From IMG/VR virus record IMGVR_UViG_3300028027_001166, positions 1-26,711 of that record: DNA of 26,711 bases, one strand, 5' to 3'. Numbering within the stretch: the stretch's first letter is position 1; every line of letters begins with the position of its first letter. Source of the stretch: a virus. Of the stretch, positions 18,585-26,112 are shown one piece after another. Below the pieces are notes generated by a model, which was not told where the DNA came from, did not search any database, and saw only the letters and a program-made list of their open reading frames with translations. Position numbers and translations under genes: made by a program.

Positions 18585-18590
18585 GTATCT

Positions 18591-18619
18591 AGTATCTCAG
18601 AAAAAGCGGGGGAAGTCAA
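18591..18619 (-). promoter_or_regulatory. Leaderless promoter (TTGACT-17-GATACT)
   Basis: TTGACT (18619-18614), 17 nt, GATACT (18596-18591), 6 nt, ATG (18584) on the minus strand. Only the first base of the -10 departs from the module at 16108. Confidence 0.65.
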
Positions 18620-18692
18620 GAGAGGATCGTAATCCCTAGTATAAGATATAACCCCATATGCCGTATAGCCAGAACACCCCAGAGAAAGTTAT

Positions 18693-18791
18693 TTATCCCC
18701 TGAAAATTTCAAAGATAGCGTAAATGATTGCCAAACCAGATAATCCGATCATGCCGTATATCCAATAAATGTATAGTAATCCTATGTCCAT
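18693..18791 (-). CDS. Membrane microprotein, 32 aa
   Basis: MDIGLLYIYWIYGMIGLSGL...YAIFEIFRG is one long transmembrane helix. The ATG sits exactly 6 nt after TATAAT (18798-18803) and no ribosome-binding site is present, so it is a predicted leaderless gene. The -35 position of its promoter falls on the first DnaA box. A further 13-codon hydrophobic frame follows at 18636-18677, too short to claim. Confidence 0.5.
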   Translation of the reverse strand: MDIGLLYIYWIYGMIGLSGLAIIYAIFEIFRG

Positions 18792-18797
18792 GGTTTG

Positions 18798-18803
18798 ATT
18801 ATA
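18798..18803 (-). promoter_or_regulatory. TATAAT box of a leaderless gene
   Basis: TATAAT then CAAACC then ATG (18791) on the minus strand. With a 17-nt spacer the -35 would be GGATAA, part of the DnaA box at 18821-18829, so DnaA bound there would compete with RNA polymerase. Confidence 0.45.
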
Positions 18804-18820
18804 CTGTGGTTTTATAAGAG

Positions 18821-18841
18821 TTATCCACAGGTTTATCCACA
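18821..18841 (+). other. Two tandem DnaA boxes
   Basis: TTATCCACA at 18821-18829 and again at 18833-18841, both perfect matches to the bacterial DnaA box, 12 bp start to start. A second such pair is at 24740-24759. Confidence 0.72.
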
Positions 18842-18942
18842 GATAAATCTTACTGATATTTTTTAGATATGGTTTACAAGTTATGATGGTTTGTCTATTG
18901 GGTAATGGAGCATTTAGACAGATGCGTTCGTAATGTCTAGGG

Positions 18943-19043
18943 TGTCAAACCTCCTACCACACAAACCTTCATATGTCAAACCTTCATATCCCGATAGCGG
19001 ATTATACCTCACAAACCACTATTTGTCAAACCTTCAAACCTTA
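18943..19043. repeat. Iteron-like TGTCAAACCT repeats
   Basis: TGTCAAACCT occurs at 18943, 18974 and 19024. A 29-bp unit (CACAAACC, 6 variable bases, TGTCAAACCTTCA) is repeated exactly 50 bp apart at 18960 and 19010. On the minus strand each copy reads AGGTTTGACA and so carries a TTGACA -35; only the copy at 19024 has a matching -10. Confidence 0.7.
19001..19029 (-). promoter_or_regulatory. Perfect consensus promoter, leftward
   Basis: TTGACA (19029-19024), 17 nt, TATAAT (19006-19001). RNA would start near 18994 and run about 200 nt through the repeats and DnaA boxes before the first gene at 18791, as origin-linked primer transcripts do. Confidence 0.72.
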
Positions 19044-19301
19044 AAACACCCTATACAAAATGTGAGAAAATGTCCAGTATTTGTAGGAAAAATGAATAAA
19101 AGGTTTGGATAATATCTAAAAACCAGGGAAAAAGGTTTGATATGAAATAAGGCTAAAAGCCATATCGTAATCTTTTATTTGGGTGTAGTTATACTAGGGA
19201 GAATGGGTATGATTTGCTGGATCCCCTGGCTTATATACCGTGGATCGTAATGTCTGATAGGATTGTGGATGATCGCTGGAGCGGGGATCGTAATAAAAGA
19301 C

Positions 19302-19330
19302 TTGACAAACCTTAGTATCTAGAGTATACT
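19302..19330 (+). promoter_or_regulatory. Near-perfect promoter, rightward, with no gene ahead
   Basis: TTGACA (19302-19307), 17 nt, TATACT (19325-19330). RNA would start near 19337. All genes to the right for 7 kb are on the other strand, so the product should be a short noncoding RNA, perhaps ending near the T8 run at 19433, or antisense to the operon ending at 19478. Confidence 0.65.
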
Positions 19331-19371
19331 GTGCCCCGAATATGGGGATATAAGGTTTGGGATCGTAATGT

Positions 19372-19464
19372 CAAAAAAGTCCCATGAATTTTTTGGATCG
19401 GTTCGTAAAGGAGGTTTGGCCAAAGGCCCCGTGATTTTTTTTCGAAGGTTCGTAAAGGAGGTTT
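19372..19464. repeat. 47-bp tandem duplication
   Basis: GGTTCGTAAAGGAGGTTT is exact at 19400-19417 and 19447-19464, and the preceding bases (GTCCCATGAATTTTTT versus GCCCCGTGATTTTTTT) align as well, so the unit is 47 bp. It lies directly beyond the end of the leftward operon. Confidence 0.65.
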
Positions 19465-19477
19465 TTTGAGAGTTCGA

Positions 19478-22085: not shown

Positions 22086-22304
22086 TTAATTATAGGGGTT
22101 TGAGTCTATTTTTACAACCTGTGTGGGTGTGATATCGGTCACATCGTAAATGACTGGGGCATTCCCATCTGATACGCCAATACTAATAATCTTATCAGAT
22201 CCACAGGCGCACTGAGGCTCAAAGCAATCAGGCACAGTTTGTTGGGTAGTTATCTCGTAAAGGGCATCGCAATCAGTGCATAGATAATCATACTTAGTCC
22301 ACAC
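22086..22304 (-). CDS. Zinc-ribbon protein, 72 aa
   Basis: The frame is open further upstream, but GGAG 7 nt before a GTG at 22304 and the coding content of the overlapping upstream gene set the start here. The product has a CxxC pair (LCTDCDALYEITTQQ) and a CACG group (PQCACGSDKIIS), a four-Cys zinc ribbon, then a beta-rich tail. Function unknown. It overlaps the zinc microprotein upstream by 11 nt. Confidence 0.66.
   Translation of the reverse strand: MWTKYDYLCTDCDALYEITTQQTVPDCFEPQCACGSDKIISIGVSDGNAPVIYDVTDITPTQVVKIDSNPYN
22089..22117 (-). promoter_or_regulatory. Leaderless internal promoter (TTGTAA-17-TATAAT)
   Basis: TTGTAA (22117-22112), 17 nt, TATAAT (22094-22089), 6 nt, ATG (22082) on the minus strand, inside the last codons of the upstream gene. 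Confidence 0.65.
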
Positions 22305-22729: not shown

Positions 22730-22890
22730 TACTCTCCCCAATACTTTACAATAGTGTTCATGGTAATATGTAGGTGGCAATCACAAGGGTCTCCCCCCAT
22801 GTTTTCCTCAAATTCAAAGTGCGATAGGTTGTCCTCATAAATCTCATTTACGAGTTCTGATATTGTGTATGGTTTGTATGTTGTGGTCAT
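22729..22890 (-). CDS. Small protein with CDCHLH motif, 53 aa
   Basis: MTTTYKPYTISELVNEIYED ... GGDPCDCHLHITMNTIVKYW is of a type I know from actinobacteriophages. The C-x-C-H-x-H cluster may bind a metal. It starts in ATGA with the preceding gene; TATGAT also ends 6 nt before the ATG with TGT in front, a possible internal promoter. The stop forms TAATG. Confidence 0.68.
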   Translation of the reverse strand: MTTTYKPYTISELVNEIYEDNLSHFEFEENMGGDPCDCHLHITMNTIVKYWGE

Positions 22891-23312
22891 GCTTCTATCA
22901 TAACACTAGGGTCTGACATTTTGGACTGCCATAGAGAACAGTTATTATCTAGTCTATCTCCAAAGACACGGATGTAGTCTGCGATATCCTCTGTTTGTTC
23001 TGTTAGACATTCTTTAACTGTGTCTACTGATATAAATACTCTGCCATTCCATAGACCCATTTGGCCAATGTTTGTTGGTACTTCTAAGCATCCGTAAGTG
23101 TCTTGCTCCCAGCCTACTCCTTCTGAACAAACCAGGGCATACTTATTGTCGCCAAATACATTTTTTTCTTCCAGGGTAACGAGTAATAGATTATCTACTG
23201 TACATGGACTAAACTCATTACTATACTGTAGACGATAGATATCATTAGCAATTGTGGCTAACTTCTTACCGTCTACGATTTGACCGATATATCCCTTAGA
23301 TCTATTTCTCAT
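22887..23312 (-). CDS. Hypothetical protein, first gene of the operon
   Basis: The frame extends into tRNA-Asp, which cannot be coding, so I place the start at 23312, where AAGGA lies 5 nt upstream. The 141-residue product (MRNRSKGYIGQIVDGKKLAT, TVDNLLLVTLEEKNVFGDNK, YALVCSEGVGWEQDTYG, GLWNGRVFISVDTVKECL) appears beta-rich; no family is recognised. A candidate promoter lies at 23344-23372 with repeats upstream of it. Confidence 0.68.
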   Translation of the reverse strand: MRNRSKGYIGQIVDGKKLATIANDIYRLQYSNEFSPCTVDNLLLVTLEEKNVFGDNKYALVCSEGVGWEQDTYGCLEVPTNIGQMGLWNGRVFISVDTVKECLTEQTEDIADYIRVFGDRLDNNCSLWQSKMSDPSVMIEA

Positions 23313-23343
23313 TATGTTCCTTACTGTTGGTGGTTTATATTTA

Positions 23344-23372
23344 ATTTTACCGTAATGTGGTTCATAAAGCAA
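23344..23372 (-). promoter_or_regulatory. Promoter of the 23.3-20.4 kb operon
   Basis: TTGCTT (23372-23367), 17 nt, TAAAAT (23349-23344) on the minus strand; the RNA start would be near 23337, 25 nt before the ATG at 23312. Confidence 0.5.
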
Positions 23373-23375
23373 GTC

Positions 23376-23436
23376 TACGTAATCGTAAAATGTCCGATTT
23401 GTGAGGTTTGGTACGTAATCGTAAATGTGAGGTTTG
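23376..23436. repeat. Two-fold repeat of paired motifs upstream of the promoter
   Basis: TACGTAATCGTAAA at 23376-23389 and 23412-23425, each followed by GTGAGGTTTG (23401-23410 and 23427-23436). The copies lie directly upstream of the -35, as activator or repressor sites would. The TCGTAA and GGTTTG parts are those repeated in the hub at 18.8-19.5 kb. Confidence 0.65.
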
Positions 23437-23458
23437 TCACACCGTTCGAAAAATCTTG

Positions 23459-23532
23459 CGAAGCGTACGGGACTTGAACCCGTGATCTCTACCGTGACAG
23501 GGTAGCGCATTAACCAACTATGCTAACGCTCC
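23459..23532 (-). tRNA. tRNA-Asp (anticodon GTC)
   Basis: A 74-nt cloverleaf: acceptor GGAGCGT/ACGCTTC (one G-T pair), anticodon stem CTACC/GGTAG with loop CTGTCAC (GTC at 34-36), T-arm ACGGG-TTCAAGT-CCCGT, discriminator G, no encoded CCA. It lies between the DUF932 gene and the next leftward operon. Confidence 0.9.
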
Positions 23533-23541
23533 AATTATGGA

Positions 23542-23565
23542 GAGCAGTTTTATTTCATGCTCAGG
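23542..23565 (-). terminator. Conserved 3' stem-loop, copy 2
   Basis: On the minus strand CCTGAGCA, an 11-nt loop ending AAAAC, then TGCTC: a 5-bp stem just after the DUF932 stop and 9 nt before tRNA-Asp. No T-run, so it may be a processing signal that frees the tRNA rather than a terminator. Confidence 0.5.
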
Positions 23566-23573
23566 AAAATTTG

Positions 23574-24596
23574 TTATGCGATAGACATTACATTCTGCAC
23601 AACTTTTAGTAAGCGATTTTTTTCTGCGTTGATAGCAGGGTCAAATCCGCTTGCGCTTGCAAGGATTGACTCATTAGAGCCACCACGAGCAGAACGGTAC
23701 CAATCAAGGCGTTCGGTGAGAGCATTGAAAGCACCCCACGCATTACCAGCAATCATGCCATTGAATTCACCAGTGTAAATATCGTTGATAACATCAACTT
23801 TATTTTCCCACTTCTTGTTGCTACCCTTAGCATCTTTTTCTGGCTTAGGATATGCAGCGAGAATGATTTTGTTGAAATCAAGAGCAGAGACTTCCTTCTC
23901 AATCATCGCCTTAGCCATGATATCAAATTCATCCATGTATGCATTAGCAAGACCGAGAGTCTCACGAGCAATTTGCACTTTACCGTTAGCGGTCTGAGTG
24001 TGGCGAATTTTGAAAGATTGCTTGATACCCTTCTTGTTCTTGCGACCTACGCCACCAAGAGCAAGATTGAGAGTGTTAGCGCACACAACACGAACGGGTG
24101 TTATGCTTGCTTGAATAGCGATAGAGCCATCGTGTGATGTGTTGATGAGGAGATAAGTCTTTACCTTATCTGCAACACCGTTAGGGTCTAGAACTGTCTC
24201 ACGCTCAAGAGCAAGAGCGCCGAATACTACACGCCCACCCTTGATAGAGCCAGCGGTTTCCCAACGACCGCCACCGTCTAGAATGTTATCACCGAATGAA
24301 AATAAATCCTCATTCTGTAAAACATGGTAACGCTCACCAACTACGCCAAGAACATCTGTCTGAGCATTGTCGGTAGGATTTGTACGCACGACATATTGGT
24401 ATTCCTTGTCGCTTGTTAGGTGTGCAGGGATTGGCATATCCTCAAGACGAACATTCCAACCATTTAGATTTGCTGCTTCCAGCATTTCTAGAGTTGTTTT
24501 TTCCTCTGTGAATACGGTACCCAATCCATGCCATGCAGGTTCACGGAAAGATGCAAAAGATGTTTTTCCGTTTTGTGTTTCTAGGTCATGTGCCAT
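23574..24596 (-). CDS. DUF932 phage/plasmid-like protein
   Basis: The start at 24596 (MAHDLETQNGKTSFASFREP) is that of the family; the frame runs 21 codons further up without support. The 340-residue protein matches DUF932 / TIGR03299: AWHGLGTVF near residue 21, VLGVVGERYHVLQNEDLFSF, GGRVVFGALALERE, SHDGSIAIQASITPVRVVCA NTL, and WGAFNALTERLDWYR. Such proteins are common on phages and plasmids, often beside replication or recombination genes, but their activity is unknown. It lies next to a DnaA-box pair and a tRNA gene. Confidence 0.88.
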   Translation of the reverse strand: MAHDLETQNGKTSFASFREPAWHGLGTVFTEEKTTLEMLEAANLNGWNVRLEDMPIPAHLTSDKEYQYVVRTNPTDNAQTDVLGVVGERYHVLQNEDLFSFGDNILDGGGRWETAGSIKGGRVVFGALALERETVLDPNGVADKVKTYLLINTSHDGSIAIQASITPVRVVCANTLNLALGGVGRKNKKGIKQSFKIRHTQTANGKVQIARETLGLANAYMDEFDIMAKAMIEKEVSALDFNKIILAAYPKPEKDAKGSNKKWENKVDVINDIYTGEFNGMIAGNAWGAFNALTERLDWYRSARGGSNESILASASGFDPAINAEKNRLLKVVQNVMSIA

Positions 24597-24630: not shown

Positions 24631-24659
24631 ATCATACACGACCCCACCGACATATGCAA
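24631..24659 (-). promoter_or_regulatory. Possible promoter of the DUF932 gene
   Basis: TTGCAT (24659-24654), 17 nt, TATGAT (24636-24631) on the minus strand. The -35 is weak. RNA start would be near 24624. Confidence 0.4.
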
Positions 24660-24700: not shown

Positions 24701-24716
24701 TGTGATTAAATTCACA
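24701..24716. promoter_or_regulatory. CRP-type palindrome
   Basis: TGTGA-TTAAAT-TCACA is a perfect match to the CRP/GlxR family operator (TGTGA-N6-TCACA), flanked by A and T so that the arms are 6 bp. It is centred about 84 bp upstream of the predicted DUF932 start site. Host cAMP-receptor control of a phage gene is possible. Confidence 0.55.
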
Positions 24717-24739
24717 TGATCGTATGGGCGTGTCGTAAG

Positions 24740-24759
24740 TTATCCACAAGTTATCCACA
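24740..24759 (+). other. Two tandem DnaA boxes (second pair)
   Basis: TTATCCACA at 24740-24748 and 24751-24759, both perfect, 11 bp start to start, about one helical turn, so DnaA would bind the same face. It lies between the CRP-type site and a conserved stem-loop, upstream of the DUF932 gene. Confidence 0.7.
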
Positions 24760-24777: not shown

Positions 24778-24805
24778 GTGAGCAGTTTACATGGACTTGC
24801 TCAGG
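24778..24805 (-). terminator. Conserved 3' stem-loop, copy 3
   Basis: On the minus strand CCTGAGCA, loop, AAACTGCTCAC, followed by TAAATTTTT. Together with the T-run it can end transcription of the gene at 24856. Confidence 0.6.
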
Positions 24806-24839
24806 TCCCTTACCCAGTTTCAAGGCATGTGGCAGGCCA

Positions 24840-24861
24840 TTTTAGTAGCCCCCTACTAAAA
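24840..24861 (-). terminator. Hairpin at the stop codon
   Basis: TTTTAGTAG, loop GGGG, CTACTAAAA on the minus strand: a perfect 9-bp stem that contains the TAG stop of the gene ending at 24856. It may slow ribosomes or protect the 3' end; no T-run follows. Confidence 0.5.
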
Positions 24862-25263
24862 ATCAATCCTGTCAACTGAGGCGCTAAGCCAAGTTATGTT
24901 ATCAGAATTATAAGACACTGATTCAAAGTCAATATCATTTACAATTGACTCAACGTCTTCATCGTGTGGAACGGTTAGAGTTAGGTTGTAACTTACGGTA
25001 ACCTCAACTTCAACTTCCTTGGTAAGTTCAAAACCACAAATCTCTGCAATTTCATTTGCTTGTGATTCTGTGATTCCGTTATTCTCTAACTCATTCAGTG
25101 TCCATGTCTGCATTGCTTCGTTGACACGATTAATCTCTGCAGCCTGTGCATAGTCACGTTGAGTGACACGCTGAATGTGTTCATCTTTACTTTTTAGTGA
25201 TTGCTGTAGAGCCGCAATCTGTGTGTTTAGGAATTCATTTGTTGCATTTACTACTGACTCCAT
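24856..25263 (-). CDS. Coiled-coil protein with YEV-like C-terminal domain
   Basis: This 135-residue protein has a helical coiled-coil N-terminal half (NTQIAALQQSLKSKDEHIQR, QAAEINRVNEAMQTWTLNEL) and a beta/alpha C-terminal half (EVEVEVTVSYNLTLTVPHDE, DIDFESVSYNSDNIT). The second half resembles the protein at 21849. The family is unknown but I know the layout from actinobacteriophages. GAGG lies 6 nt before the ATG in a leader (CAGAAAGAGGCCCCCAATGG) nearly repeated before the gene at 25827. Confidence 0.7.
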   Translation of the reverse strand: MESVVNATNEFLNTQIAALQQSLKSKDEHIQRVTQRDYAQAAEINRVNEAMQTWTLNELENNGITESQANEIAEICGFELTKEVEVEVTVSYNLTLTVPHDEDVESIVNDIDFESVSYNSDNITWLSASVDRIDF

Positions 25264-25329: not shown

Positions 25330-25827
25330 CTACCAAGATGATGAGTAATAGAATGATAACTTATCAACTTCGGCTAGAGCAAAGATACGCTCTAACTGAC
25401 TGATAGTATCATTTAGGCTGTGCCAATACCACTCATCAATATCTGTGTTGCCAAAGAAAAATCCTGCTTGTGGTGGCAGTAGGCTAGGGTCTTTGTTTTC
25501 TAATGCGTGCTTGCATAGTGCTAGCAATTCTATTAGTTTTTCCTGTGGAACATAGTAGTCGCCACAGTCATCATCTCCATCTTGGACTTCTCTTACAAAC
25601 CAAGAATGTATCCAATTAGCCTTGCGCCAGTAAGCACAGGTTACAGATACTTCTGCTCCATAGATATCTGTAGCAACATCGGATAGTTGTGTCAATTCCA
25701 TTAGGTCATTGAATTTTGGATAGACTGCTTCAGGAGATGAATAAGATAATTCATTATCATTCTGCAAGGCTTTCCAATTGATTTTTTCTAAGTGCTTCTT
25801 AGCGCTGAGATACATATCTAATCCCAT
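25330..25827 (-). CDS. Conserved phage/bacterial protein of unknown function
   Basis: This 165-residue protein belongs to a widespread uncharacterised family recognised by its start MGLDMYL, the block YWRKANWIHSWFVREVQDGDDDCG, YYVPQEKLIELLALCKHAL, and QAGFFFGNTDIDEWYWHSL. All of these are present and the length is typical. The conserved Trp, His, Asp and Cys suggest an enzyme or binding protein, but no activity is known to me. AAGGAAG precedes the ATG, with its own promoter upstream. Confidence 0.8.
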   Translation of the reverse strand: MGLDMYLSAKKHLEKINWKALQNDNELSYSSPEAVYPKFNDLMELTQLSDVATDIYGAEVSVTCAYWRKANWIHSWFVREVQDGDDDCGDYYVPQEKLIELLALCKHALENKDPSLLPPQAGFFFGNTDIDEWYWHSLNDTISQLERIFALAEVDKLSFYYSSSW

Positions 25828-25886: not shown

Positions 25887-26064
25887 GTACCAATCGTAAG
25901 CGCCATAATCTTAAATAATGAGACGTAAAGGATGTGAGAAAAATCACACGGTTCGAAAAATTTTTGCACGCAGCAAAATAAAAAATGATTGGGAACGAGT
26001 TTTTATTGTGCACCTTTCAACTCTTTTCAGCAGCGGGATCCGCATCTGCCCAATCAAACTTAGT

Positions 26065-26091
26065 GTGAGCAGTTTTGCTTCATGCTCAGGA
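26065..26091 (-). terminator. Conserved 3' stem-loop, copy 4
   Basis: On the minus strand TCCTGAGCATG, AAGC loop, AAAACTGCTCAC, 21 nt after the stop of the gene at 26113. A second small hairpin (TTCCC-GTAGT-GGGAA, 26098-26112) touches the stop codon. No T-run follows. The 180 bases to its left are noncoding as far as I can see. Confidence 0.5.
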
Positions 26092-26112
26092 AGTTATTTC
26101 CCGTAGTGGGAA

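Follow-up and report, generated by a model that had tools for sequence, protein, structure and literature searches.

The linear IMG/VR record IMGVR_UViG_3300028027_001166 (26.7 kb; its whole stretch of 26,711 nucleotides is called the window here) contains a minus-strand gene for a DUF932 protein (PF06067, E 4e-46). Upstream of this gene lies, as the original prediction had it, a tandem pair of exact DnaA boxes next to a CRP-type palindrome. The two copies of TTATCCACA at 24740-24748 and 24751-24759 (plus strand) have a start-to-start distance of 11 bp, and a gap of 23 bp separates the first box from the palindrome TGTGATTAAATTCACA at 24701-24716. That the window has no exact boxes besides two such pairs also held, the sole others being at 18821 and 18833. 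The palindrome TGTGA-N6-TCACA is not unique in the window, exact copies being present also at 22128, 23426 and 25933. The features are as follows:

18821-18841, plus strand: second DnaA-box pair, 12 bp phase, in a noncoding region with AAGGTTTGA repeats; candidate replication origin
22128-22143, no strand: fourth exact palindrome, within an open reading frame, no assigned promoter
23426-23441, no strand: CRP-type palindrome TGTGAGGTTTGTCACA just after tRNA-Asp, about 92 bp upstream of a minus-strand TTGCTT-N17-TAAAAT
23574-24596, minus strand: DUF932 gene, 340 amino acids, PF06067, phrog_1221
24631-24636, minus strand: −10 element TATGAT after a 17-bp spacer, in TGTATGAT context (from sequence)
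24654-24659, minus strand: −35 element TTGCAT of the DUF932 promoter (from sequence)
24701-24716, no strand: CRP-type palindrome TGTGATTAAATTCACA, its minus-strand 5' end 80 bp upstream of the −10
24727-24735, plus strand: GGCGTGTCG, located between the palindrome and the box pair, the top over-represented 9-mer in the phage family
24740-24748, plus strand: DnaA box TTATCCACA, first of the pair, exact match
24751-24759, plus strand: DnaA box TTATCCACA, second of the pair, 11 bp phase, exact match
24779-24809, minus strand: H-type pseudoknot GGGACCTGAGCAAGTCCATGTAAACTGCTCA, in the preceding gene's 3' untranslated region
24856-25263, minus strand: preceding early gene, 135 amino acids, function unknown
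25933-25948, no strand: CRP-type palindrome TGTGAGAAAAATCACA, 79 bp upstream of the −10 TAGACT (25870-25865, minus strand) of the gene at 25330-25827

Read on the minus strand, the DUF932 promoter is TTGCAT-N17-TATGAT, and the boxes are located farther upstream than the palindrome. The TTGCTT-N17-TAAAAT promoter near the palindrome at 23426 was identified by eye. The listed open reading frame 22887-23510 begins inside tRNA-Asp (23458-23532); its real start is probably 23312, downstream of this promoter. The second box pair is located in a noncoding stretch (18585-19477) that is rich in AAGGTTTGA repeats and is a candidate origin or genome terminus.

Boxes and palindromes in the phage family

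The DUF932 protein of the window has 404 relatives on viral contigs, of which 80 with 89-99% identity were fetched. The family set used below comprises 64 dereplicated related loci (1.16 Mb), which are distant relatives of the Stanwilliamsviridae. A search for close DNA relatives among isolated phages found none. Among isolated phages, the closest are those of Streptomyces in the Stanwilliamsviridae, whose DUF932 is about 53% identical; in phage NootNoot and others the early block is on the minus strand, as here, but the block of NootNoot contains neither TTATCCACA/TTGTCCACA boxes nor the palindrome. From synteny with these phages, in which DUF932 is located in the terminal repeat, the minus-strand genes around DUF932 in the window are probably an early, terminal block.

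In the 1.16 Mb, GGCGTGTCG ranks first among over-represented 9-mers (191 copies versus 1.0 expected) and TGTGGATAA second (356 versus 15.1). GGCGTGTCG/CGACACGCC are confined to the span from about 9 kb upstream of DUF932 up to the DUF932 start. TGTGA-N6-TCACA is present in 279 copies, whereas spacers of 2-5 and 7-12 give 0-6, which is the strict spacer of a CRP/GlxR site. Tandem box pairs number 49 across 37 records and are found in 26 of these; the reversed control pattern gave 0. Box partners in the family are 11 or 12 bp away, in direct orientation.

The original prediction would have failed with many boxes scattered elsewhere, a pattern that did not appear. Counted genome-wide, the exact boxes gather in the early region: 11 large records hold 86 of them, and about 70 fall within about 17 kb around DUF932, a tally in which some boxes are near DUF932 only by wrapping round contig ends, and the remaining 16 are near the chance level for about 1 Mb. 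In one relative (G009, 119 kb) all six palindromes and eight of the nine boxes are located at 65.8-79.5 kb. In another (G010) a doubled box pair (101157, 101198 and position 1) at the far end of the contig sits at the expected distance upstream of DUF932 if the contig ends are joined, which suggests that this genome is circularly permuted or terminally repeated.

With a regular expression modelled on the DUF932 promoter, 273 non-redundant promoters were predicted (rather than mapped). Of these predicted promoters, 116 have an exact palindrome upstream, versus 0.08 after shuffling; for upstream boxes the figures are 94 and 0.86. The palindromes start at −60, −70 and −79 to −81 from the predicted −10, whole helical turns apart, in front of about a dozen gene families; the palindromes of the window at 24701 (−80) and 25933 (−79) fit this phasing. 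When each combination of downstream gene family and position counted once (33 votes), a 10.5-bp helical periodicity gave a Rayleigh p of about 0.001. The palindromes are thus helically phased upstream of the predicted −35, and they share with CRP class I promoters and actinobacterial GlxR/Crp sites both TGTGA-N6-TCACA and the whole-turn spacing; they differ in being combined with DnaA boxes and phage-specific words and in that the protein reading them is putative. If measured from the −10, their phase is about 3 bp off the lac geometry of E. coli.

In 40 of 331 boxes TCACA is found exactly at +18 from the box start, the box being fused to a CRP half-site (TTATCCACATGA-N6-TCACA; TTATCCACATGACCTACATCACA). 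Some phages have the fused element at their DUF932 promoter; others have it at a different early promoter, in two copies spaced by 41-42 bp. IMG/VR holds at least 120 stretches with the fused element, and among the matches listed 117 of 120 belong to this phage family, 115 of them assigned by alignment and two by shared promoter architecture.

The cassette upstream of DUF932 is modular across the relatives. Of the 64 loci, 23 contain proximal boxes, in either orientation (two boxes in 16, one in 7, none in 41). Since 41 loci lack them and both orientations occur, DnaA is not essential at the DUF932 promoter. On the DUF932 tree the three box states need at least 11 changes, versus 21 in shuffles. 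The distal pair, matching 18821-18841 of the window, is kept in 39 of 54 loci.

It had been proposed that the two pairs, 6 kb apart, might loop together. The pairs are 4.8 to 6.4 kb apart, depending on the locus; of the 15 loci whose proximal pair is complete, 14 have the distal pair, yet so have 22 of 34 without a proximal box. With at least 11 switches of state in the proximal cassette, the comparison does not support a conserved 6-kb loop. By the family-level comparisons, boxes and palindrome form a conserved, promoter-associated regulatory arrangement, and the site upstream of DUF932 is a real, family-wide early-promoter control module.

Candidate host and putative reader proteins

DnaA_C and Crp-HTH domains were sought in 18 phage records and none was found; a phage-encoded DnaA or Crp was dropped as a candidate for these records. 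A clue to the host, albeit a weak one, is an actinobacterial metagenome-assembled genome (G038, L114) that carries a contig of such a phage, the assignment being one phage contig in one bin. When the phage DUF932 gene was compared with 296 genomes of the order, only the same bin was found, plus a distant homologue at 35% identity.

In the dnaA region of the candidate host (TTATCCACATGGTTATCCACA) a pair of TTATCCACA with 12-bp phase is located beside dnaA, and the boxes of the window match TTATCCACA as used by this candidate host, weak as its assignment is. The pairs at this actinobacterial oriC are, like those of the phages, exact direct tandems; they differ in that the phage pairs are upstream of early promoters, have a phase of 11-12 bp, occur in either orientation and vary in presence among close relatives. 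In the collection of papers searched, none describing DnaA boxes in actinophages was found.

The candidate-host genus also has a Crp-type regulator with the helix GASRETVNKALADF, which is known from mycobacterial Crp. In 21 genomes of this genus (the host call being one bin) the exact palindrome was found at 3 sites and its reversed control at 10; when one mismatch was allowed, the summed counts were 235 for the palindrome and 263 for the control. This absence of enrichment indicates either the wrong host, a tiny Crp regulon, a different Crp site or another reader protein.

Possible functions of boxes and palindromes

As far as can be judged from DNA sequences, the arrangement suggests that the phage ties its first genes to the replication-initiator and cAMP-receptor-type proteins of its host, an effect on DUF932 expression that was among the original proposals. 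The best explanation, which in our judgement has an even chance of being right, is that host factors control the promoter and that the distal pair serves replication separately. At the phased −60/−70/−80 positions the palindrome would be bound by a dimeric CRP/GlxR-type regulator, probably that of the host; the phase would put this regulator on the face of the DNA that allows contact with RNA polymerase. Host DnaA would bind the helically phased pair upstream of the palindrome and modulate the promoter; in the fused version its binding would overlap the palindrome. We infer here both the identity of the proteins and the sign of the regulation. Early transcription would thereby be linked to host factors already there at injection. 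The distal pair, about 5-6 kb downstream, combines initiator boxes with repeats in noncoding DNA as replication origins do; it would more likely serve replication initiation, its origin activity being predicted.

If host DnaA and a Crp-type regulator indeed read the sites, common lake phages would time the start of infection to the replication and nutrition of their host, and the phased modular promoters would offer a regulatory code open to testing in phages whose host bacteria are difficult to culture. A bolder version, which we regard as doubtful, is that the fused DnaA-box/CRP-site element and the phased palindromes gate the whole early region of this common freshwater actinophage family by DnaA-ATP (replication competence) and cAMP (energy state).

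Possible, if rather unlikely, is that the boxes mainly titrate DnaA, as had also been considered, or recruit it for phage replication, so that their proximity to promoters is incidental. With 1 to 13 boxes per large record (one record of 111 kb has a single box) the number is low for titration, and promoters repeatedly carry boxes, some of which are joined to a CRP half-site at a single offset. Recruitment for replication would be in line with the commoner distal pair in its noncoding, repeat-rich, origin-like region, with the gain, loss and flipping of the proximal boxes, and with the gene content of G009, where phage genes for a DnaB helicase, a primase-like protein and RecA are among the matches listed (25 of 54 families) and a domain search found no DnaA.

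We consider it unlikely that a phage-encoded regulator, instead of host Crp or DnaA, uses the palindrome as its operator, and perhaps the TTATCCACA-like sites too. Such a regulator could be hidden among the early proteins, most of which are without a known domain, and it would agree with a palindrome that is very common in the phages and unenriched in the candidate-host genus, as well as with the enrichment of the phage-specific words GGCGTGTCG, ATGTCCGATT and TTACGA beside the palindrome. The 18 phage records, however, lack a Crp-HTH protein, the palindrome fits the CRP/GlxR consensus, the Crp-type protein of the candidate-host genus has the SRETVNKAL helix, and a tandem of TTATCCACA at 12 bp adjoins the dnaA gene of the candidate host.

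Quite improbable is a function of the boxes as marks of a terminal-repeat or staged-injection region like that of T5, a phage with DnaA boxes in its injection stop signal (PMC13250531). In both cases a large tailed phage carries DnaA boxes together with repeats and palindromes in the early region that enters first (PMC13250531), but the phages belong to different groups, and the boxes described here are distributed over many promoters rather than placed in one end block. In NootNoot the DUF932 gene is located 1.4 kb from the genome end and has two matches within the record, which places it within the terminal repeat, and the box-rich region is the corresponding early block; against this, the matching stretch of NootNoot is without such boxes, and two-step injection would be conjectural for these phages. 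Chance or simple composition has next to no probability: single 9-mers do arise randomly and, with one mismatch to the box allowed, the window has 15 matches versus 9.8 expected, yet the reversed-pattern, 9-mer, shuffle, box-offset and spacer controls at the family level all rejected it.

A recurrent pseudoknot and other observations

The H-type pseudoknot between the DUF932 site and the preceding gene recurs in the window (24779-24809, 23537-23567 and 26062-26092, all on the minus strand). Its pattern is NNNNC-CU-GAGCA-N-GNNNN-loop-AAAC-UGCUC, and it is mostly found 0-20 nt past the stop codons of early genes. An Rfam search of the window gave no match to the intergenic pseudoknot. In the family, 88 copies were gathered by sequence anchor alone; three base pairs of the first stem are in register in all 88, with compensatory changes, and the covariation score is 0.328 versus 0.078 in shuffles. 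The pseudoknot is possibly an RNA 3'-end or processing element.

The word TCGTAA is strongly strand-biased in the window (28 copies on the plus strand versus 3 on the minus strand); TTACGA-type words are present in promoters too. The G009 genome (L272-L277) encodes a cytochrome P450, a carbamoyltransferase, a B12-dependent ribonucleotide reductase and five proteins with 2OG-Fe(II) oxygenase domains.
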